From positions 1-22,966 of IMG/VR virus record IMGVR_UViG_3300029267_000042: a stretch of DNA of 22,966 nt; one strand, 5' to 3'. The notes beneath the pieces are model-generated. The model made no database searches. It saw nothing but the letters and a program-made list of their open reading frames with translations, and had not been told where the DNA came from. Source of the DNA: a virus. This document shows positions 1,341 to 22,966 of this stretch, one piece after another. How positions within the stretch are numbered: the stretch's first letter is position 1; each line of letters opens with the position of its first letter. Both the position numbers and the translations under genes were made by a program.

Positions 1341-2924
1341 ATGCCTGAGTTATTTGGATTTTCTTTCGGGAAGTCTTCTCGTAAGTCGGCAATAGATAAC
1401 ACCGTCACCAAACCAGACGGAACAGTAGTAAACCCATCGTTCGTGCCTCCAAGCATGGACGATGGGTCTGCTATTGTTGGTGGTGGTGGATACTTTGGAC
1501 AGTATCTTGATATGGATGGATCAATTCGTTCCGACAACGATTTGATCATGAAATATCGGTCTATGGCCATGCACTCTGAAATTGAGATGGCGATTGAAGA
1601 CATTCTCAATGAAGCTATTGTTTATGAAATTGATTATCCCGCTGTCAAGTTAAGACTTGAACAACTGAACATCTCCGATTCGATAAAGAAGAAAATCGAA
1701 GAAGAATTTGAATCAATACTTAAACTTTTAAACTTTAGTAATAGAGGTTATGATATTTTCCGTAGATGGTACATTGAAGGAAGACTCTATTACCACATGA
1801 TCATTGACCAACAGAATCCCAAGAAGGGTATTCTGGAATTACGACCTGTTGATCCTATCAAGATGAAAAAGATCAAGCAGATTCATAAGGAAAAGGATCC
1901 AAAAACACAGGTCAGTATGGTGACGAAAGTTGATGATTTCTTTGTATACTTTGACAAAGCATACATCGACAAGTATGGAACTGGTCTTCAGATAATCAAT
2001 ACTCAAGGAATCGAAGGTCTTAAAATCTCAACAGATTCTATCTGTTACGTTACTTCTGGTTTGTATGACTTCGAAAACAAGAGAGTGATTGGTTATCTTC
2101 ATAAGGCAATCAAACCACTCAACCAGCTCCGAATGATAGAAGATGCGGTTGTCATTTATCGTATCTCAAGAGCACCAGAACGTCGTATCTTTTATATTGA
2201 CGTAGGTTCTCTACCGAAGACCAAGGCTGAACAGTACCTTCGAGAGATCATGAACAAGTATCGCAATAAACTCGTTTATGATGCTTCCACGGGTGAAATT
2301 CGTGACGACCGTAGGCACATGTCGATGCTTGAAGACTTCTGGCTTCCTCGACGTGAAGGTGGACGTGGTACGGAAATTCAAACACTCGATGGTGGACAGA
2401 ACCTCGGTGAAATGGAAGACGTAGATTACTTCAAGAGAAAACTCTATCGTTCGTTGAACGTTCCAATCACTCGACTCGAGCCAGACACAGGATTTAATCT
2501 TGGTAGAGCTTCTGAAATCACCAGAGACGAACTTAAATTTGGTAAATTCATTGATAAACTTCGCTCATCATTTGCTCAATTATTCATCAATCTCATTCGT
2601 ACACAACTTCTTCTAAAGGGCGTGATGAGAGAAGAAGAATGGAAGAACATCGAGCAAGATATTCGCTTTGATTTTAATCGTGATTCATACTTCACAGAAC
2701 TCAAGAACACTGAAATTATGAAGGAAAGACTTGAGTTAATTCGTGAGATGGAAGAACATATTGGTATTTACTTCTCAAGAAACTTTGTCAGAAAGAACAT
2801 TCTTCACCAATCCGAGAAGGAAATTGAAGAAATGGATAAAGAAATTGAGAAAGAAACCAAAGAAGGTGATATAGATATGAGCGGCGGAATGGACGATCAA
2901 CAACAACCTCCGCTAAGGAGATAA
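1341..2924 (+). CDS. 20: Portal vertex protein gp20
   Basis: This is the dodecameric portal, which nucleates prohead assembly, docks the packaging motor and later joins the neck. At 527 residues it is almost the length of T4 gp20 (about 524). Recognisable blocks include the N-terminal SMAMHSEIEMAIEDILNEAI, the central GLYDFENKRVIGYLHKAIKP, RISRAPERRIFYIDVG, and DASTGEIRDDRRHMSMLEDF followed by WLPRREGGRGTEI and VPITRLEPDTGF. The start is supported by AGGAAG at 1331-1336. The C terminus is highly charged (many EKEIEEM-type repeats) and ends in a Gln/Pro tail. The next gene's ribosome binding site lies over its last codons, suggesting coupled translation. Confidence 0.97.
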   Translation: MPELFGFSFGKSSRKSAIDNTVTKPDGTVVNPSFVPPSMDDGSAIVGGGGYFGQYLDMDGSIRSDNDLIMKYRSMAMHSEIEMAIEDILNEAIVYEIDYPAVKLRLEQLNISDSIKKKIEEEFESILKLLNFSNRGYDIFRRWYIEGRLYYHMIIDQQNPKKGILELRPVDPIKMKKIKQIHKEKDPKTQVSMVTKVDDFFVYFDKAYIDKYGTGLQIINTQGIEGLKISTDSICYVTSGLYDFENKRVIGYLHKAIKPLNQLRMIEDAVVIYRISRAPERRIFYIDVGSLPKTKAEQYLREIMNKYRNKLVYDASTGEIRDDRRHMSMLEDFWLPRREGGRGTEIQTLDGGQNLGEMEDVDYFKRKLYRSLNVPITRLEPDTGFNLGRASEITRDELKFGKFIDKLRSSFAQLFINLIRTQLLLKGVMREEEWKNIEQDIRFDFNRDSYFTELKNTEIMKERLELIREMEEHIGIYFSRNFVRKNILHQSEKEIEEMDKEIEKETKEGDIDMSGGMDDQQQPPLRR

Positions 2925-2927
2925 TCA

Positions 2928-3434
2928 ATGGCATCAGCAAACTATGATATTTCTCACGAACAAGGTACAGACTTTGTTCTGAATATCAACTATTACGACG
3001 ATCAGGGTGTTCCAATAGACATGACAAGTGGATATTGGGCCAAAATGGACGTGCGCGGCCAAAAATATGAGTTGGACACAAACGACACATCACTGAAAAT
3101 TCGTTTTAGTACGTCAAACACATATGGTTATACAGGAAGCATCGACACCGCTGAAGGAAAGAAAAAAGCTGGACATATTTCTCTGAATGGTGAATATCTT
3201 TACTCCGATGATGCAGAAGGTGCAACTTCGAGTCAAGTCACTGGACAAATATCTTTAGCTTTTACAAAACAGGTTTCTAGACAAATCGCATCTGGTTCCT
3301 ACTTGTATGATTTATTTCTCTATAAGGATAGAGGAATATCATCAGGTACAACCGCAGACGCTCTTGTTGAAAGACTTGTAGCTGGTAAGTTTATAATTTC
3401 ACCATCCATCTCAAACCCGGAATTTGACTCCTAA
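2928..3434 (+). CDS. Ig-like domain phage structural protein (BppU-like N-domain type)
   Basis: This 168-residue protein resembles the widespread phage family that opens with an 'EQGTDF...INYYDDQGVPIDMTSGY' type strand pair, continues with a 'W-A-K-M-D-V-R' strand, and closes with YLYDLFLYKD and a final LVAGKFIISPSIS strand. Such proteins adopt a small beta-sandwich and are usually baseplate, fibre or neck attachment modules, so a virion role is inferred. AAGGAG at 2915-2920 overlaps the end of gp20. Its stop codon overlaps the next start (TAATG), so the two are probably translated as a pair. It is not a T4 gene, and it heads the accessory cassette inserted between portal and prohead core. 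The exact partner and position in the virion are unknown. Confidence 0.7.
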   Translation: MASANYDISHEQGTDFVLNINYYDDQGVPIDMTSGYWAKMDVRGQKYELDTNDTSLKIRFSTSNTYGYTGSIDTAEGKKKAGHISLNGEYLYSDDAEGATSSQVTGQISLAFTKQVSRQIASGSYLYDLFLYKDRGISSGTTADALVERLVAGKFIISPSISNPEFDS

Positions 3435-4303
3435 TGCCTTTAACAGTTTCACCCAGAACACAGTTTTCCATAGGAAAGTTTGGTCAGTCCTTTGTGAATA
3501 TTCATCGAGGACAAAATGTAGAATCTCAACAATCTGAGGTCTTTCTTCGAGAAAGTACAAATTTCATTGGTAAAGGCCCATTTAGTCCGGCAGGTGTTTA
3601 TCCGTGTCGTTCGCAGGGCCGACAAGACCCACAAAACAGACCATACTATTCTATAGAAAATGGCACAGATATACCAACACAACTTTGTTTGGGTGAAGCT
3701 GGATTTCGAAGATTCCGAGATACGTTTCTCAATCCCATTGATGAAGAAAGTGATCCGTTTCTTTCGACCGACCCAGATAGTGATTACGTTAACGGCACTG
3801 ATATATTAAACTCAAAACATGCTGGTGAAAAATATGAAGCAACATCATCTTTCACTGATTGGAAAATTGTTTCTGGTATTGAATTCTCAATGGCACCAGA
3901 CATTTACGATGAATATTATCCAAAACAAGGTTCTTCTATAAATGTATATTGGTCATATCACAAAGAGGGTGAAGTGGGTGAACAACCAGCGATTGTTACC
4001 GACAACCGAAATGACGAATATCTCAATATAGCAAATAGCATCGGAATAAACCCCGTCTACTGGGCAGGTTCTCGTATATACCTCGAAATAAGACATGATT
4101 TGAATACTATGGATTATTCGTATACAGTTGAAAACATGGAAGGGTGGGTTCGAACCAAGAAGAAAAATTCACTCATCTTGTCAAGATTCGTTTCAGCATA
4201 CAACAGTAAAGTGTTTTCGAATCTAGAAAATTATTACAGAGATCGAGATTCTGGCCCAGGAATCCCAAGAGGAAGATGTACAGTAATGTTCTTCTCGAAG
4301 TAG
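3434..4303 (+). CDS. Unknown protein, probable virion component
   Basis: I do not recognise this 289-residue protein. Its ATG overlaps the previous stop (TAATG), and it ends 7 bases before the next gene, so it belongs to the three-gene cassette between portal and prohead core. It has no signal peptide or membrane segment. It is rich in aromatic and polar residues, with many Tyr and Ser-Asn-Thr stretches. A mostly beta structure is likely, judging from segments such as SSINVYWSYH and SRIYLEIRHDL alternating with loops. The C terminus (GRCTVMFFSK) is short and strand-like. Codon use is more A/T-ending than in gp18, gp19 or gp23. A head, neck or fibre role is inferred only from position. Confidence 0.6.
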   Translation: MPLTVSPRTQFSIGKFGQSFVNIHRGQNVESQQSEVFLRESTNFIGKGPFSPAGVYPCRSQGRQDPQNRPYYSIENGTDIPTQLCLGEAGFRRFRDTFLNPIDEESDPFLSTDPDSDYVNGTDILNSKHAGEKYEATSSFTDWKIVSGIEFSMAPDIYDEYYPKQGSSINVYWSYHKEGEVGEQPAIVTDNRNDEYLNIANSIGINPVYWAGSRIYLEIRHDLNTMDYSYTVENMEGWVRTKKKNSLILSRFVSAYNSKVFSNLENYYRDRDSGPGIPRGRCTVMFFSK

Positions 4304-4310
4304 GATTGAT

Positions 4311-5618
4311 ATGTCAAGTAATCAAAAAATCACGGGTTATCTGAAAATTATTGATAACGGTTCTCCCATCTTTAGTCCTGGCAGAAGAAATAGCCGTCTT
4401 ATAAAGAGAAGAGATGAAATTGTTTTAGAGATCACAAAAAGAGATAGTAAAAAAGTTTACTATTATGATGATCCTACTGCTAAGTTTTTCATGAAAAAAC
4501 CATGCGATCTGAAGTATCTTTTACCACTTGACTGCAATCGAAAAATAGAAGTTCTATGCGGACAGGACGAATGTGATCTGAGAGGATTTGGTAGAGCTAT
4601 AAATATAAATACACCCCAAACTCCCAGTTATGATGATGATGAAGATGGTGGCAACGAAATAGCAGGAGGCAGCCCTCCATGCTTAAATCCTCCATGCGTC
4701 AGTATCAATTGTCCAAATCCACCATGTAACCAAGAAGATTGTGCAGAGGGGGAAAATTACAATCCAGAAACTGGTGAATGCGAACCACCCGATTGCCTCA
4801 ATCCAACAGGACAAGGAAGTTGTTGTTTTGACCAAGATCAAGAAAATTGTTGTTATGTGACTTGTTATAAAGTCGTTCGCGAATCAGGAGGTGAATTGGA
4901 TTGTTGTACAGAACCAACAATTCCATTTGATCCAAACAACCCATGCGGCGGTGATCTGGTATGTCCTGATTGTTATCTAGGCAAATTTAAACTATGTCCA
5001 GTCGTTGAAAAGTATTGTTTAGAAGGCGAAGACGAAAGTGGATATTTGATTTTCTCTCTGGACAACAAAAGTGTAAAATTCGATCCAAACTTCGGTCAGT
5101 TTGTTCCACCAAACACAGAACCAGATATCGAATGCGAACCAGACGGCACGCCTTGTAATGCGTGTTTGACTCTTCCTTGTGGACAACCAGACGAATATTT
5201 AGACGGAACGAATATCGGATGTGCTCATGGCCCTCTTTGGGTGGGATTGCCACAAGCGCCAGATCCAGATGGAAATCCATATTCAGAAGATGATGAGAGA
5301 TATGACAACGTATTAGAAGAGGTTTTTTCAAATTCAGTTGGTATATGTAATGACCCAGATGGTCAATGTACACGTTATAGAACTTTTTTTTATTGTGTAT
5401 GTCCTCCTGGCCCATCAAATAATTATAGAGCATCGTATGCGTCAATACGAGTACCATCCTGCACTGTGAGTTGGAGGCCTCCTTCACAAGAAGAACCACC
5501 TGCTTTGTATACAACACTGTTGCCAGGCTCGGATTCTGGATGGGTGTCTGAATTTGTATGGACATCTGCGGGTGCAGTTGCAGGTGGACCTTCGAGTTCT
5601 TGTAATTGTGGCGGATAA
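4311..5618 (+). CDS. Cysteine-rich protein, unknown function, possible virion decoration
   Basis: This 435-residue protein contains 35 cysteines (about 8%), exceptional for a cytoplasmic phage protein. Residues 1-105 form a Lys/Arg-rich, Cys-poor head. An Asp-rich linker (YDDDEDGGNE) follows, then Pro-Cys and Cys-Cys motifs (NPPC, SCC, NCC, DCC, VCPDC, PCNAC, CVC) to the C-terminal CNCGG. There is no signal peptide, so disulfides would have to form after lysis or the cysteines bind metal. TAGGA at 4301-4305 supports the ATG at 4311. It closes the cassette before the capsid genes and could be a capsid or neck surface protein. It resembles EGF- or VWC-like repeats only in cysteine density; I cannot name a family. 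Confidence 0.6.
   Translation: MSSNQKITGYLKIIDNGSPIFSPGRRNSRLIKRRDEIVLEITKRDSKKVYYYDDPTAKFFMKKPCDLKYLLPLDCNRKIEVLCGQDECDLRGFGRAININTPQTPSYDDDEDGGNEIAGGSPPCLNPPCVSINCPNPPCNQEDCAEGENYNPETGECEPPDCLNPTGQGSCCFDQDQENCCYVTCYKVVRESGGELDCCTEPTIPFDPNNPCGGDLVCPDCYLGKFKLCPVVEKYCLEGEDESGYLIFSLDNKSVKFDPNFGQFVPPNTEPDIECEPDGTPCNACLTLPCGQPDEYLDGTNIGCAHGPLWVGLPQAPDPDGNPYSEDDERYDNVLEEVFSNSVGICNDPDGQCTRYRTFFYCVCPPGPSNNYRASYASIRVPSCTVSWRPPSQEEPPALYTTLLPGSDSGWVSEFVWTSAGAVAGGPSSSCNCGG
4598..4611 (+). promoter_or_regulatory. Two overlapping TATAAATA octamers inside a gene
   Basis: Two exact late-promoter octamers share two bases (4598-4605 and 4604-4611) within the cysteine-rich gene. They could be an internal late promoter for the downstream prohead block, but no start codon with a ribosome binding site follows closely, and the run encodes Ile-Asn-Ile-Asn. 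Chance is possible in A/T-rich sequence. Confidence 0.25.
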
Positions 5619-13466: not shown

Positions 13467-14513
13467 TTGAAACTCGCCATTATTAATGATACGCACTTTG
13501 GTGCCAGAAACGACAATCAATTATTTCTCGATCAATCGTTTCAGTTTTTTGAAGAACAATTTTTTCCTTACTGTTTAGAAAATGGAATCACAAAGGTCTT
13601 ACACCTCGGCGACTTTCTTGATCGCCGAAAGTTTGTAAACTTCAATACTCTTGCACAGGTCCGTTCTCGTTTCATTTCCAAGTTGAAAGAACATGGAATT
13701 GAAGTGCATTGTATCTTGGGCAACCACGACACATACTATCGAAATACCAATCGAATCAATTCCATTCGGGAACTCTTTTCCGATATGGAAAACTTTTATC
13801 TGTACGAAGATCCAATCGAATTGACATTCGATAGTCTTAAGATTGCGATGGTTCCGTGGATCAATAAAACAAACAGCAAAGAGATGATTGACTTCATAAA
13901 GAATTCTAAGGCTCCAATTGTTGCTGGTCACTTTGAACTGGATGGATACGAAGTTCTTCGTGGCGTGAAGTATGAAGGTGGACTTGATGACAAACTCTTC
14001 AGTCGATATGAGATGGTTCTTTCTGGACATTTTCATATCAAGAACAGCAAGAACAATGTTCATTACCTCGGAACACAATATCAGTTGACGTTCAGTGATC
14101 TGAATGTGAAGAAGGGTTTTCATACACTTGACACTGAAACGAGAGAGTTGAGATTTGTGGAGAATCCAAAAATATTGTTTCATTCCATCACATATGACGA
14201 GAAAGAAGATATGTTGGAAAGAGATTATTCCATGTATGAGAATAGTTTCGTGAAGGTGTATGTCTTCGAGAAAAGTAATCCATATTTGTTTGACAAGTTT
14301 CTCGACAAGTTGTATGATGTGAAGGTTTCGAGCCTAACTATTATTGAGGACATGGGTGTTGACATTGGCGAAGATGTGGGTATAGATGTCTCAAAGGACA
14401 CTGTTTCCATCATGAACGATGAAATTGACACTCTCACAAATGTACCAGACGATCAGAAGTCTCGAATCAAAAATCTTATGCGTGAACTTTACATGGAGTC
14501 CTTGTCCCTATGA
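13467..14513 (+). CDS. 47: Recombination nuclease subunit gp47 (Mre11-type)
   Basis: gp47 is the nuclease of the gp46/gp47 complex, which resects double-strand ends for recombination-dependent replication. The 348 residues (T4: 339) carry the metallophosphatase motifs: NDTHFG (Asp8, His10), GDFLDRR (Asp49), GNHD (85-88), GHFELDG (His155) and SGHFH (186-190). The start is TTG at 13467, one base after the gp55 stop, with TAGGAG (13455-13460) at good spacing; the translation MKLAIINDTHFG is the expected N terminus, so no ATG is available. Its stop overlaps the next ATG. Gene 46 follows after one intervening gene. Confidence 0.95.
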   Translation: MKLAIINDTHFGARNDNQLFLDQSFQFFEEQFFPYCLENGITKVLHLGDFLDRRKFVNFNTLAQVRSRFISKLKEHGIEVHCILGNHDTYYRNTNRINSIRELFSDMENFYLYEDPIELTFDSLKIAMVPWINKTNSKEMIDFIKNSKAPIVAGHFELDGYEVLRGVKYEGGLDDKLFSRYEMVLSGHFHIKNSKNNVHYLGTQYQLTFSDLNVKKGFHTLDTETRELRFVENPKILFHSITYDEKEDMLERDYSMYENSFVKVYVFEKSNPYLFDKFLDKLYDVKVSSLTIIEDMGVDIGEDVGIDVSKDTVSIMNDEIDTLTNVPDDQKSRIKNLMRELYMESLSL

Positions 14514-15085
14514 ACATTTTTGTTCTTGACGAATCCCCCGTCGTATCTGCGGAGATGATGTGTGATAAACATGTTGTTAAAATGCCTGTGGAAACTGCAC
14601 AGATGCTTTCAACAGTCCATCGGTTTTTGGATGGAAAACAAACCTTCTTCAAATCGAAGAATGGTAGAAATCTCAAAACATGGACCCACCTCACAGACTC
14701 GGTTGAGTATTACCCTAACGGTCCTGTGTTATATCGTTCTACTATGATCAATCATCCATGCACAGTGTGGGCTCGAGAGACTATGGGCAACTATGACTGG
14801 TTAGTACGTCATGGTCTTGCTCTGTGTACGGAGTATACTCGTCGATATGATAAGATTCACGGATCACAGAAGGTCATCGAATGGTGTCGAGACAACATGC
14901 CAAAAAAGATTTCACCTTCGATTTTTCTTACCGAATTTGCTCAAGCCATGCCTGAACAATATCGAGTAAAGTATGATGCTGTTTCTGCTTATAGAAGCTA
15001 TTATCTCGGGGAAAAGAAAAAGTTTGCTACATGGACCAACCGCGAGATTCCCGAGTGGTGGTCGTCTGGAGTTGTTCTTGTATGA
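14510..15085 (+). CDS. Conserved phage protein between 47 and 46, unknown function
   Basis: This 191-residue protein is of a kind common in T4-like marine phages, often in the same place between genes 47 and 46. Conserved-looking parts are MNIFVLDESPVVSAE, CDKHVVKMPVETAQMLSTVHR (residues 18-38), NHPCTVWARE and the FAQAMPEQYRVKYDAVSAYR-YY stretch. The Asp/Cys/His residues near the N terminus and the HPC motif could form a catalytic or metal site. The arrangement faintly recalls pyrimidine-dimer glycosylases (T4 endonuclease V), but I cannot support that assignment. It overlaps the gp47 stop by four bases (ATGA) and its own stop overlaps the gp46 start, so co-translation with the nuclease subunits is likely. 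Confidence 0.75.
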   Translation: MNIFVLDESPVVSAEMMCDKHVVKMPVETAQMLSTVHRFLDGKQTFFKSKNGRNLKTWTHLTDSVEYYPNGPVLYRSTMINHPCTVWARETMGNYDWLVRHGLALCTEYTRRYDKIHGSQKVIEWCRDNMPKKISPSIFLTEFAQAMPEQYRVKYDAVSAYRSYYLGEKKKFATWTNREIPEWWSSGVVLV

Positions 15086-19304: not shown

Positions 19305-19942
19305 TGGGATGTGGATGTAATAAAGGTAAAAGTACGGGTGGTTCGAAGAGAGCCAATTCAAATCTAAAGCAAAATGAATCGACGCCCAAGATTCAAAATG
19401 AACCATCGTTTCCAACGATTCCGCAGTTATCAACACCAGTTTCGAGGCCTGTTACCGAAGACTCCGAAGAACCAGAGTCGCAAAAGGGAAAGGTTTCTTT
19501 TGGAGATAAGGTAAAGAACTTCGGTAAAGCTGTAGTTTCGAGAGCCACTCAAGGAAAAGCAGACGATAAGTTGGTAAAACTTAGAGTTTTATCTTGTCAT
19601 GGTGATGATGAAGTGGTATCATGTCCGTATCGAAAACCAAGTAATGTTCGTGAAGGATTTTTCTATTGTGACGCATGTGGTTGTGGAGACAAACCAAGAG
19701 CATTCTTGAATAATCCAGACAATCCTGATGCTTACACAAAATTACATTATCCTTGGGTTTCTTGTCCCGTACGAATGCCAGGTTTTGGAGATTACAAGCC
19801 ATACGCCGAAGAAACTCCAGAAGATATTGAAAAGTTTAAAGAGGGTATGGAGAGAAAGAAGTTGGTAGAGATCGTTTTGAAAGAAAGAGGAGAAGAAATA
19901 CCTCCTGCTTATTCACCCACGAAAAATGGAGACAGTGAATGA
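19304..19942 (+). CDS. Cysteine-cluster (zinc-ribbon-like) protein, unknown
   Basis: This 212-residue protein begins MGCGCNKGKS, a Cys-Gly-Cys head typical of several short phage proteins, then has a long Ser/Pro/Lys-rich, probably disordered stretch (to about residue 85). The C-terminal domain holds LSCHGDDEVVSCPYRKPS, YCDACGCGDKPRAF and YPWVSCPVRMPGF, a cysteine arrangement suited to one or two zinc ions. I chose the ATG at 19304 because AGGAGG (19291-19296) is seven bases upstream; the in-frame ATG at 19298 is too close to it. Its stop overlaps the clamp start (ATGA). A link to replication is inferred only from position. No family name is certain. Confidence 0.65.
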   Translation: MGCGCNKGKSTGGSKRANSNLKQNESTPKIQNEPSFPTIPQLSTPVSRPVTEDSEEPESQKGKVSFGDKVKNFGKAVVSRATQGKADDKLVKLRVLSCHGDDEVVSCPYRKPSNVREGFFYCDACGCGDKPRAFLNNPDNPDAYTKLHYPWVSCPVRMPGFGDYKPYAEETPEDIEKFKEGMERKKLVEIVLKERGEEIPPAYSPTKNGDSE

Positions 19943-20646
19943 CAACTGTGGAAACTAATATTATGAAGATTTCAAAAGAAACCCTAGACATCCTAAAGAA
20001 TTATTCGACCATCAATTCAAACATCATCATTCCAGAGGGGAATGAGATTGCAACTCTTTCGCCGATGAAGAACATCATGTCTCTTGCTTCGGTAACAGAA
20101 ACTTTCGAGAACGAGATTGCTATTTGGGATCTCAACAAGTTTCTCGGTACGATTTCTCTTTATGACAAACCAATCTTTGAGTTCAATGAAGATCATGTCA
20201 TCATCTCAGAAGAGAATGGAAAGACTCGCACAAAGTATCGTTATGCAGAATCGCAACTGATTCAACGAGTAACTCAGCGTGTGAAGATGGATGATGTTGT
20301 TGTGAGTTTTGAACTGCGCAACAAGGATCTTTCTCAGGTTCTTCGTGCCGCTTCTGTTCTTCAACTTCCTGATTTAGCCGTTCGTACTTCCGAGAGTGGT
20401 GATTCAATTGAACTGGTCGCTCTGGATTCAAAGGATTCTACCTGCAACACATACTCTGTGGATCTCGGAGAACTTCCGAACGATGGTCATGATTTTGAGT
20501 TCTTCTTCAAGACTGAAAACATGAAGATGTTGCCTGGAGATTACAACATCGAGATAAGCAAGAAGATGGTTTGTCAGATGAAGAATCAGAATTCTGATCT
20601 GTCTTATTGGATTGCACTCGAAAGTAACTCAAGGTATGAGGACTGA
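19939..20646 (+). CDS. 45: Sliding clamp gp45
   Basis: gp45 is the trimeric processivity clamp for the phage polymerase and, in T4, the mobile enhancer of late transcription. The 235 residues match T4 gp45 (228): MKISKETLDILKNYSTINSN aligns with T4 MKLSKDTTALLKNFATINSG, AIWDLNKFLGTISL with AIYDLNGFLGILSL, and NMKMLPGDYNIEI with NMKMQPGNYKLLL. The ATG at 19939 overlaps the preceding stop and has GGAGA upstream. The internal ATG at 19963 aligns better with the T4 start and could be the true one, giving 227 residues. gp55 here keeps a matching C-terminal docking motif. Confidence 0.95.
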   Translation: MTTVETNIMKISKETLDILKNYSTINSNIIIPEGNEIATLSPMKNIMSLASVTETFENEIAIWDLNKFLGTISLYDKPIFEFNEDHVIISEENGKTRTKYRYAESQLIQRVTQRVKMDDVVVSFELRNKDLSQVLRAASVLQLPDLAVRTSESGDSIELVALDSKDSTCNTYSVDLGELPNDGHDFEFFFKTENMKMLPGDYNIEISKKMVCQMKNQNSDLSYWIALESNSRYED

Positions 20647-20648
20647 AC

Positions 20649-21587
20649 GTGAAGGATGAGAACCTGTGGGTCGAGAAGTATCGGCCTCGAAAAATTGAAG
20701 ATTGTATTCTTCCTGTGCCTATCAAAAACACTTTTCTCGATATTGTGAAGAGTGGAGAGATGCAAAATCTTCTTCTGTCAGGTAAGGCAGGAGTGGGAAA
20801 GACAACCGTTGCTCGTGCCCTGTGTAATGAACTCGGGTGCGAAAACATCTTGATTAACTGTTCGGAAGATGGAAACATCGACACACTCCGTACCAAGATC
20901 AGAAACTTTGCAAGTACGGTTTCGTTCAGTAATCAAAAGAAGGTTGTGATTCTAGACGAGTTCGATTATTCCAATGCACAGTCTACACAACCTGCTCTTC
21001 GCGGGTTCATCGAAGAGTTTTCAAAGAACTGCCGGTTCATTCTTACATGTAATTATAAGAACCGAATCATTGAACCGATTCATTCTCGATGTACGAACAT
21101 CGAGTTCAAGATCGAGAGTGGAGACAAACCTAAACTGGCAAAGCAGTTCTTTGATCGTTGTTCTATGATTCTCAAGAACGAGGAAGTGTCTTTTAAAGAT
21201 CGAGTTTTGAGTGAACTCATCATCAAGCATTTTCCAGACTTCCGCAGAATCTTGAACGAGTTGCAGAGATATTCTGTGGCTGGTCAAATTGATGAAGGAA
21301 TTCTGACGCAACTCAGTGAAGTGAACATCAAGAATTTGATGAAGTTCATGAAGGAGAAGGACTTCACGAATGTTCGCAAATGGGTTGTTGAGAATCTAGA
21401 CAATGATCAAGTTCAAATCTTTCGCAAATTGTATGACAATCTGTATGATCATTTAACTCCACATAGTATTCCTCAAGCGATTCTTATCATCGCTGAGTAT
21501 CAATACAAGGCTGCATTTGTTGCTGATTCGGAAATTAATCTTACAGCATGTCTCATTGAAATTATGATGGAGTGTTCATTCAAATGA
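20649..21587 (+). CDS. 44: Clamp loader ATPase subunit gp44
   Basis: gp44 is the AAA+ subunit that, with gp62, opens and loads gp45. The 312 residues (T4: 319) begin with WVEKYRPRKIEDCILP, the usual clamp loader N terminus. Walker A SGKAGVGKTT is at 44-53, Walker B ILDEFD at 101-106 and the SRC motif at 146-148, followed by FPDFRRILNELQRYS. The start is GTG at 20649, two bases after gp45, with GAGGA (20638-20642) upstream; no ATG fits. The stop overlaps the GroES-like start (ATGA). No gp62 gene follows directly, unlike T4. Confidence 0.95.
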   Translation: MKDENLWVEKYRPRKIEDCILPVPIKNTFLDIVKSGEMQNLLLSGKAGVGKTTVARALCNELGCENILINCSEDGNIDTLRTKIRNFASTVSFSNQKKVVILDEFDYSNAQSTQPALRGFIEEFSKNCRFILTCNYKNRIIEPIHSRCTNIEFKIESGDKPKLAKQFFDRCSMILKNEEVSFKDRVLSELIIKHFPDFRRILNELQRYSVAGQIDEGILTQLSEVNIKNLMKFMKEKDFTNVRKWVVENLDNDQVQIFRKLYDNLYDHLTPHSIPQAILIIAEYQYKAAFVADSEINLTACLIEIMMECSFK

Positions 21588-21883
21588 CAAAGTTTTATCC
21601 AAGTCGTGGGAAAGTAGCTATTAAATATGTCCCCCAGACACAATCAAAGGGACCAATCATCTATGAAGAAAAAAGAACTGGAATGTATGGCGTCGGCTAT
21701 GTTATTAGTCTTGGTCTTCCCAACATTCTCAAAAATGGGAAAGTGTGTTCAGTTGAGTATCAAGAAGGTCAACTCGTTGCCTATGAAAACCGTAAGGAAA
21801 ATGAAAACTATGGTGACTTCATTCTGATGGATCAGTCTGCTGTTGTGATGGTTGTCGAAGATGCGGAGACTCGCATTGGCTGA
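21584..21883 (+). CDS. GroES-like co-chaperonin (gp31 functional analogue)
   Basis: The 99 residues fit the GroES barrel: PSRGKVAIKYV (first strand, residues 6-16), a shortened mobile loop containing KGPIIYEEKRTG (22-33), where PIIY may replace the GroEL-binding IVL tripeptide, then GVGYVISLG (36-44), a roof region LKNGKVCSVEYQEGQLVAYEN, and the closing strand GDFILMDQSAVVMVVED. These follow the order of bacterial GroES, including 'G-x-V-hydrophobic-x-hydrophobic-G' and 'I-L-x-x-(S/D)-x-I-hydrophobic'. T4 gp31 is more distant in sequence. The ATG overlaps the gp44 stop (ATGA). It probably assists the host GroEL in folding gp23. Identification is by pattern; a structural search would settle it. 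Confidence 0.75.
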   Translation: MTKFYPSRGKVAIKYVPQTQSKGPIIYEEKRTGMYGVGYVISLGLPNILKNGKVCSVEYQEGQLVAYENRKENENYGDFILMDQSAVVMVVEDAETRIG

Positions 21884-22966
21884 GTTGTTATTGAACTCTA
21901 TTGATACCGATTATGCTATCGGAAAGTTTCGTGATTACTATGACAACTTTGATCGCATTGATGGGTACTTTCGGGATCGAAAGAAGGAGAGACTGGAGGG
22001 GGTCACTCCTTCTCTCTTTCCCGTTGAGAATGAGTTCTTTCATGATTTCACTATGAATCCAATGGACATGAACTTTGCTGTGACTGAAACATCGAAGGAA
22101 GTCTACGACAATTTGTTTTGTCAGGTTTCTTCGTTTCCCGCTGATGACAATCCTGGCAAGAATGTTCGATTCATTATCAAGGAAACAAATACCAACACAA
22201 TTGCTGGCTTTGTTCGGTTGGGATCTCCGACGATCAATAGTGCCCCTCGAAACAAGATGTTGAATCGAACACCAGATTTGACGGCATTGAATCGTCACTT
22301 CATCATGGGGTTTCATATTGTACCAGCACAACCATTTGGATTTAATTATCTCGGCGGTAAACTATTGACCATGATCTGTTGTTCGCACTTCACTCGACGT
22401 TACATCGACAAGAAGTACAACACCGAGATTTGTGCTTTTGAAACTACATCTTTATATGGAAATCTAAAGGGTTGTAGTCAGTACGATGGTATGAAACCAT
22501 ATCTTCGAAACGTAGGATTGACCGATAGTAAGTTTCTCTTAACTATGGCGGATCAGTGGTACAGAGAACTGAACGAGTGGTTCATCAATCGAAACGGTGG
22601 CGAACCTCTGGTGAAGAAGGAGGCCTCCAGTCGTAAGTTGAAAACTCAGACGAAGATGATTGCAATCATCAAGGCCAGTCTTCGTTCACTGGGTCGCACG
22701 CAGGATCTGAAGGACTTTGATGACTTCATCAAGCGTGCCATTGGTTTGAATACACAAAAGTTGCAATACTTTTCAGATTATGGGTTCTCGAATGTGGTTG
22801 ATTATGTGAATGGCAAGGCAGATTCTCTAGAGAAGAAACCAAACTTTGATAATTATGAACTGGAAAATGCAATCAACTGGTGGAAGAAAAAAGCACAAAA
22901 AAGGTTTGACAATCTAAATGCTGATGGTAGAATTCGACATGAGATGGAAGTCTGGAAGTCAGACAA
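21861..22966 (+). CDS. DUF4338/DruA-like protein, partial (runs off window)
   Basis: This frame stays open for 368 codons to the window end. Its central region (residues 103-220) resembles the DUF4338 family that includes DruA of the Druantia defence system: NTIAGFVRLGSP and APRNKML, then LNRHFIMGFHIVPAQPFGFN, LGGKLLTMICC, FETTSLYGNLKG and the MKPYLRNVG end. Similar proteins with 'PFGYNFLGGKL' and 'TTSLYG' motifs occur in T4-like marine phages without known function. The ATG at 21861 overlaps the GroES-like gene by 23 bases and lacks a clear ribosome binding site; TTG at 21876 has GGAG at 21865-21868 and is an alternative. The C-terminal part (after 260) is basic and helical. It occupies the usual position of gp62 but does not resemble it. 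Confidence 0.6.
   Translation, partial: MRRLALAELLLNSIDTDYAIGKFRDYYDNFDRIDGYFRDRKKERLEGVTPSLFPVENEFFHDFTMNPMDMNFAVTETSKEVYDNLFCQVSSFPADDNPGKNVRFIIKETNTNTIAGFVRLGSPTINSAPRNKMLNRTPDLTALNRHFIMGFHIVPAQPFGFNYLGGKLLTMICCSHFTRRYIDKKYNTEICAFETTSLYGNLKGCSQYDGMKPYLRNVGLTDSKFLLTMADQWYRELNEWFINRNGGEPLVKKEASSRKLKTQTKMIAIIKASLRSLGRTQDLKDFDDFIKRAIGLNTQKLQYFSDYGFSNVVDYVNGKADSLEKKPNFDNYELENAINWWKKKAQKRFDNLNADGRIRHEMEVWKSD

Follow-up and report, generated by a model that had tools for sequence, protein, structure and literature searches.

A DruA-family protein with a predicted GNAT fold encoded in the replication gene cluster of marine T4-like phages

The window analyzed here (the whole stretch of viral DNA, 22,966 nt) carries at its end a stand-alone gene whose product very probably belongs to the DruA family and has a GNAT acyltransferase fold, as judged from profile comparisons and a predicted structure. 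The gene is located in a phage replication cluster, and a tentative, plausible reading of its role is that the protein acts as an acyltransferase on phage DNA, in a manner resembling the Mom protein of phage Mu; acyl transfer and DNA as its acceptor are both inferences here.

Gene frame and genomic setting

The open frame extends on the + strand from TTG 21852 to 22964, reaching the end of the window. Two candidate starts were considered, ATG 21861, used in the initial annotation, and TTG 21885 (MLLNSIDTDY); since relatives begin with "MILNxxDAxYA", which aligns with the latter, an uncertainty of 8 residues remains at the N terminus. The 3' end of the gene is missing (relative L008 extends 9 codons further), and the frame is thus incomplete, with its stop outside the window. 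The gene and its upstream neighbors are as follows:

19939 to 20646, + strand: gp45 sliding clamp (PHROG 223, E 4.6e-69)
20649 to 21587, + strand: gp44 clamp loader (PHROG 168, E 1e-124)
21572 to 21883, + strand: GroES-like gene, overlapping the DruA-like frame (PHROG 3188, E 0.003; Cpn10 17.6 bits, under the cut-off)
21861 to 22966, + strand: DruA-family (PF14236/DUF4338) gene for a protein with a predicted GNAT fold (open reading frame, Pfam, PADLOC, profile-profile comparison, AlphaFold model)

Elsewhere in the window, a pyrimidine dimer DNA glycosylase (14510-15085; PF03013, E 5e-11) is encoded between gp47-like and gp46-like genes, and a cysteine-rich protein of 435 residues (4311-5618) downstream of the virion genes.

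The gene was present in 31 phage records, all of them marine and T4-like (Synechococcus phages, cyanophages, pelagiphages and two marine single-cell virus records), and in at least 597 IMG/VR contigs. Records carrying gp44 number about 376 for Synechococcus phages and 61 for entries labeled "Cyanophage"; the gene occurs in roughly 6% of these and is therefore accessory. Its position in isolates is between gp44 and gp62-regA, or, in HTVC008M, between gp43 and uvsX. Among about 112 loci, the nearest recognized upstream gene was gp44 (39), gp43 (22), a GroES-like gene behind gp44 (10), hsp20 (9) or gp41 (3), and the nearest recognized downstream gene was gp62 (45), gp43 (10) or uvsX (9); the remaining loci ended at a contig border or had no recognized neighbor. 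A GroES-like gene separating gp44 from the DruA-like gene was seen only in close relatives of the window (10 loci). In contig L027 the gene is placed between a pyrimidine-dimer-glycosylase-like gene and gp47/gp46-like genes, named by similarity to genes of the window. The replication cluster is not a universal setting, since in contig L034 the gene adjoins structural genes and uvsW/gp55-like genes read on the opposite strand. The phage proteins formed a single clade (SH-aLRT 100), and on the tree the gene switched at least five times between three slots. The initial annotation had described a T4-type core operon: the location in a replication operon stands, while "core" does not suit the gene itself, which is accessory and occupies several slots of the cluster. 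Comparison with close relatives yielded dN/dS values of 0.03-0.05, similar to those of the neighboring gp44, indicating strong purifying selection.

Family membership and conserved residues

The match of the window protein to Pfam PF14236 (DruA) was significant (E 2.8e-6), yet its score of 27.1 bits exceeds the curated cut-off of 27.0 by a margin that is thin by itself. Seven relatives with 43-49% identity scored 35-45 bits against the same profile, and PADLOC DruA1 was matched with E 3.5e-4. A profile-profile comparison (hhalign) of 57 viral sequences with 54 DruA sequences from bacterial genomes gave E 9.4e-15, which, together with the Pfam scores, bears out the DruA/DUF4338 link proposed in the initial annotation. 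Ten of the bacterial loci were inspected and resemble Druantia I operons, with a druA of ~410 aa followed by genes of ~560 and ~630 aa, or by a ~955-aa fusion, and then by the start of a large frame. PHROG 19197, a family of unassigned function, was matched over the full length (E 1.7e-136); the NCBIfam search of the window protein returned no match, and the PDB sequence search no relative.

A second phage paralogue clade scored higher against PF14236 (80 bits for Mosig EXVC030M, 77 for copy 2 of L067 and 66 for copy 2 of HTVC008M). This more DruA-like clade was noticed at L067:1454-2584 and 2606-3994, where both paralogues are arranged in tandem, and at L116:3974-5113 and L007:3608-4903; HTVC008M carries both paralogues at separate places.

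The features recognized within the protein, with residues numbered from position 21852, are:

22059 to 22529, + strand: GNAT core, residues 70-226 (AlphaFold2 model; strands and helices in GNAT order)
22242 to 22256, + strand: APRNK motif, residues 131-135 (sequence; joint alignment)
22329 to 22367, + strand: QPFGFNYLGGKLL, residues 160-172, between a strand and a helix (sequence, predicted secondary structure, conservation)
22437 to 22460, + strand: FETTSLYG motif, residues 196-203 (sequence)
22476 to 22496, + strand: SQYDGMK segment, residues 209-215 (joint alignment)
22530 to 22964, + strand: C-terminal part, mostly helical and net positive, mean charge +5.6 (model)

The four motifs reported initially (APRNK, PFGFN at residues 161-165, LGGKLL at 167-172 and FETTSLYG) were recovered in the order and spacing then described, with FETTSLYG 28 residues after GGKLL. 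According to the joint alignment, R133, the GGK within QPFGFNYLGGKLL, T198, S200 and G203 of FETTSLYG, and Y211 of SQYDGMK are kept in both phage and bacterial DruA, and the invariant polar residues T198, S200, S209, Y211, K170 and R133 lie near the expected active site, where Y211 may possibly serve as general acid. In GNATs the CoA pyrophosphate is bound at a strand-to-helix junction, where a loop with the consensus [RQ]xxGxG/A precedes the helix. Residues Q160-P-F-G163-F-N165 nearly match this consensus at the expected position, and the segment QPFGFNYLGGKLL would accordingly be a candidate acyl-CoA-binding site; the loop is not a clean consensus, because bacterial DruA differs there and lacks the QPxGxN residues of the phage protein.

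Predicted structure and relation to Mom

The AlphaFold model of the window protein (57 sequences; mean pLDDT 88, pTM 0.83) and that of a bacterial DruA (pLDDT 85) showed an identical order of helices and strands along the whole protein. VIA-align, whose alignments cover residues 70-334 of the phage model, returned GNATs throughout, with 282 chains at Z of 8 or more. The top PDB match was phage Mu Mom (8bv8; Z 10.6, rmsd 4.0, 172 residues aligned), followed by polyamine, aminoglycoside and protein acetyltransferases; the next matches align 139-148 residues at Z 9.8-10.0, and the polyamine and aminoglycoside enzymes 138-148 residues. As matches within 1 Z unit count as tied, the result reads as a GNAT that is Mom-like among others. 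The bacterial DruA model again retrieved GNATs, with Mom third (Z 9.1) and tied, and Foldseek gave weak matches to the phage model (best E 0.015), nearly all of them GNATs. The four best viral structures were identical for both models; three are uncharacterized giant-virus proteins (BFVD A0A3G4ZXG3, A0A5K0UAJ3 and A0A3G4ZRA1, from Faunusvirus, Yasminevirus and Dasosvirus).

Membership of the Mom family by sequence was rejected on both Pfam and profile comparisons: PF25680 (Mom) was absent from the matches of the window protein up to E 10, and hhalign against Mom gave a probability of 1%, i.e. no sequence-profile link. Mom has a catalytic S124 and conserved residues D149, Y159 and N163. True Mom genes (PF25680) do occur in marine T4-like phages, namely in Melnitz-3, S-SSM7 and one IMG/VR contig (L215, L216, L217). 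The last two also carry the DruA-like gene, true Mom having been detected in two of eight tested records with that gene (S-SSM7 and G002). The presence of both genes argues against simple substitution of one protein for the other, and replacement of Mom by the DruA-like protein was rejected as a rule. Melnitz-3 had no DruA match in a search whose control gave no signal either. GenBank record S-SCSM2R names its copy of the gene "methylcarbamoylase mom".

Possible roles of the phage protein

Under the tentatively preferred reading, the DruA-family protein stands alone, has a GNAT acyltransferase core, which profiles and predicted structure support, and is probably produced together with the phage replication proteins, judging from its operon position. 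From a donor of the acyl-CoA type it would transfer an acyl group to the phage DNA as this is replicated, in the way of Mu Mom, and would thereby protect the DNA against nucleases. Mom-family GNATs are known from published work to modify adenine in DNA. The family profiles, the GNAT models, the repeated placement among replication and recombination genes and the purifying selection count for this reading, whereas the missing profile link to Mom, its tie with other GNATs, the presence of true Mom in two of eight records, the low frequency of the gene among cyanophages and the imperfect cofactor loop count against it. DNA is favored as acceptor because of the replication-cluster setting and the DNA-related systems in which the family otherwise occurs (Druantia; DndF fusions). 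Since the GNAT similarity is generic, it is also possible that the enzyme acylates a protein, an RNA or a small molecule (host RNA polymerase, a replisome protein, tRNA or polyamines) in host takeover or metabolism; the acetyltransferases tied with Mom in Z and the published precedent of phage GNATs acetylating host RNA polymerase agree with such acceptors, but the genes around it serve replication and recombination, not host takeover, and Mom aligns over more residues than the polyamine and aminoglycoside enzymes.

The positively charged C-terminal part and the departure of the family's cofactor loop from the GNAT consensus would also fit a non-catalytic protein, in which the fold persists as a replisome scaffold that binds DNA or protein, yet the invariant polar residues near the expected active site and the strong purifying selection make this unlikely. 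Among the roles proposed in the initial annotation, housekeeping or DNA modification fits the GNAT fold, the replication setting and the selection regime, while blocking of host Druantia or competition between phages found no positive evidence. Homology with a Druantia component is what speaks for a part in countering Druantia, as decoy or inhibitor, or in attacking competing phages; such a function appears highly improbable for an old, diversified and monophyletic phage clade, abundant in environmental contigs and conserved in its replication context, whose members keep a full-length enzyme fold with no sign of a truncated or fast-changing decoy, and no homologue of druB or druC was found in any of 50,697 phage records. 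On this last result a Druantia operon in phages was rejected; the neighbors of the DruA-like gene are replication genes.

Returning to acylation of DNA, a broader and rather unlikely extension is that DruA is a Mom-like DNA-base acyltransferase in Druantia and marine phages alike, with the phage modifying its genome at the fork and Druantia I marking self or foreign DNA. The phage relative is widespread and highly conserved, and its predicted fold is nearest to Mom. An acylated base in cyanophage or pelagiphage DNA, if present, would account for the phage gene and point to what DruA does in bacterial defense.

Comparison with known systems

Druantia type I, a bacterial anti-phage system, comprises druA together with druB, druC, druD and the druE helicase; to our knowledge, no role of DruA in this system has been established by experiment. 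The phage protein shares with it the PF14236 family, the profile match, the order of secondary structure and the GGK, TxS, G, SxY and R residues, but is only about 19-20% identical, has a QPxGxN loop of its own and is encoded in a phage replication cluster without druB or druC, so that the window gene falls outside Druantia type I as defined by druA with its partner genes. Phage Mu Mom (PF25680, 8bv8) is likewise a phage-encoded GNAT and the top PDB fold match, but sequence-profile similarity is absent and the DruA-like protein has extra N- and C-terminal helical parts. DUF4338 has been termed a GNAT domain where it is fused to DndF (PMC10853773); the Pfam domain is common to both, but there it is an accessory domain of a restriction protein and here a stand-alone phage gene.

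The closest precedent is the Phold study (PMC12774648), the only work on cyanophages and Druantia found in the literature, in which six Synechococcus phages were reported to encode proteins structurally like DruA, with S-PRM1 shown. The S-PRM1 protein is 46.5% identical to that of the window and is encoded in the same place beside the clamp loader; nothing essential sets the two apart, structural likeness to DruA alone having been reported there. As phage DruA-like genes and the GNAT assignment had been published separately, the gene described here does not represent a new system; it belongs, with good support, to a family already known. The present analysis adds its place in the replication cluster, how abundant it is, the selection acting on it, a second paralogue clade and the structural resemblance to Mom.
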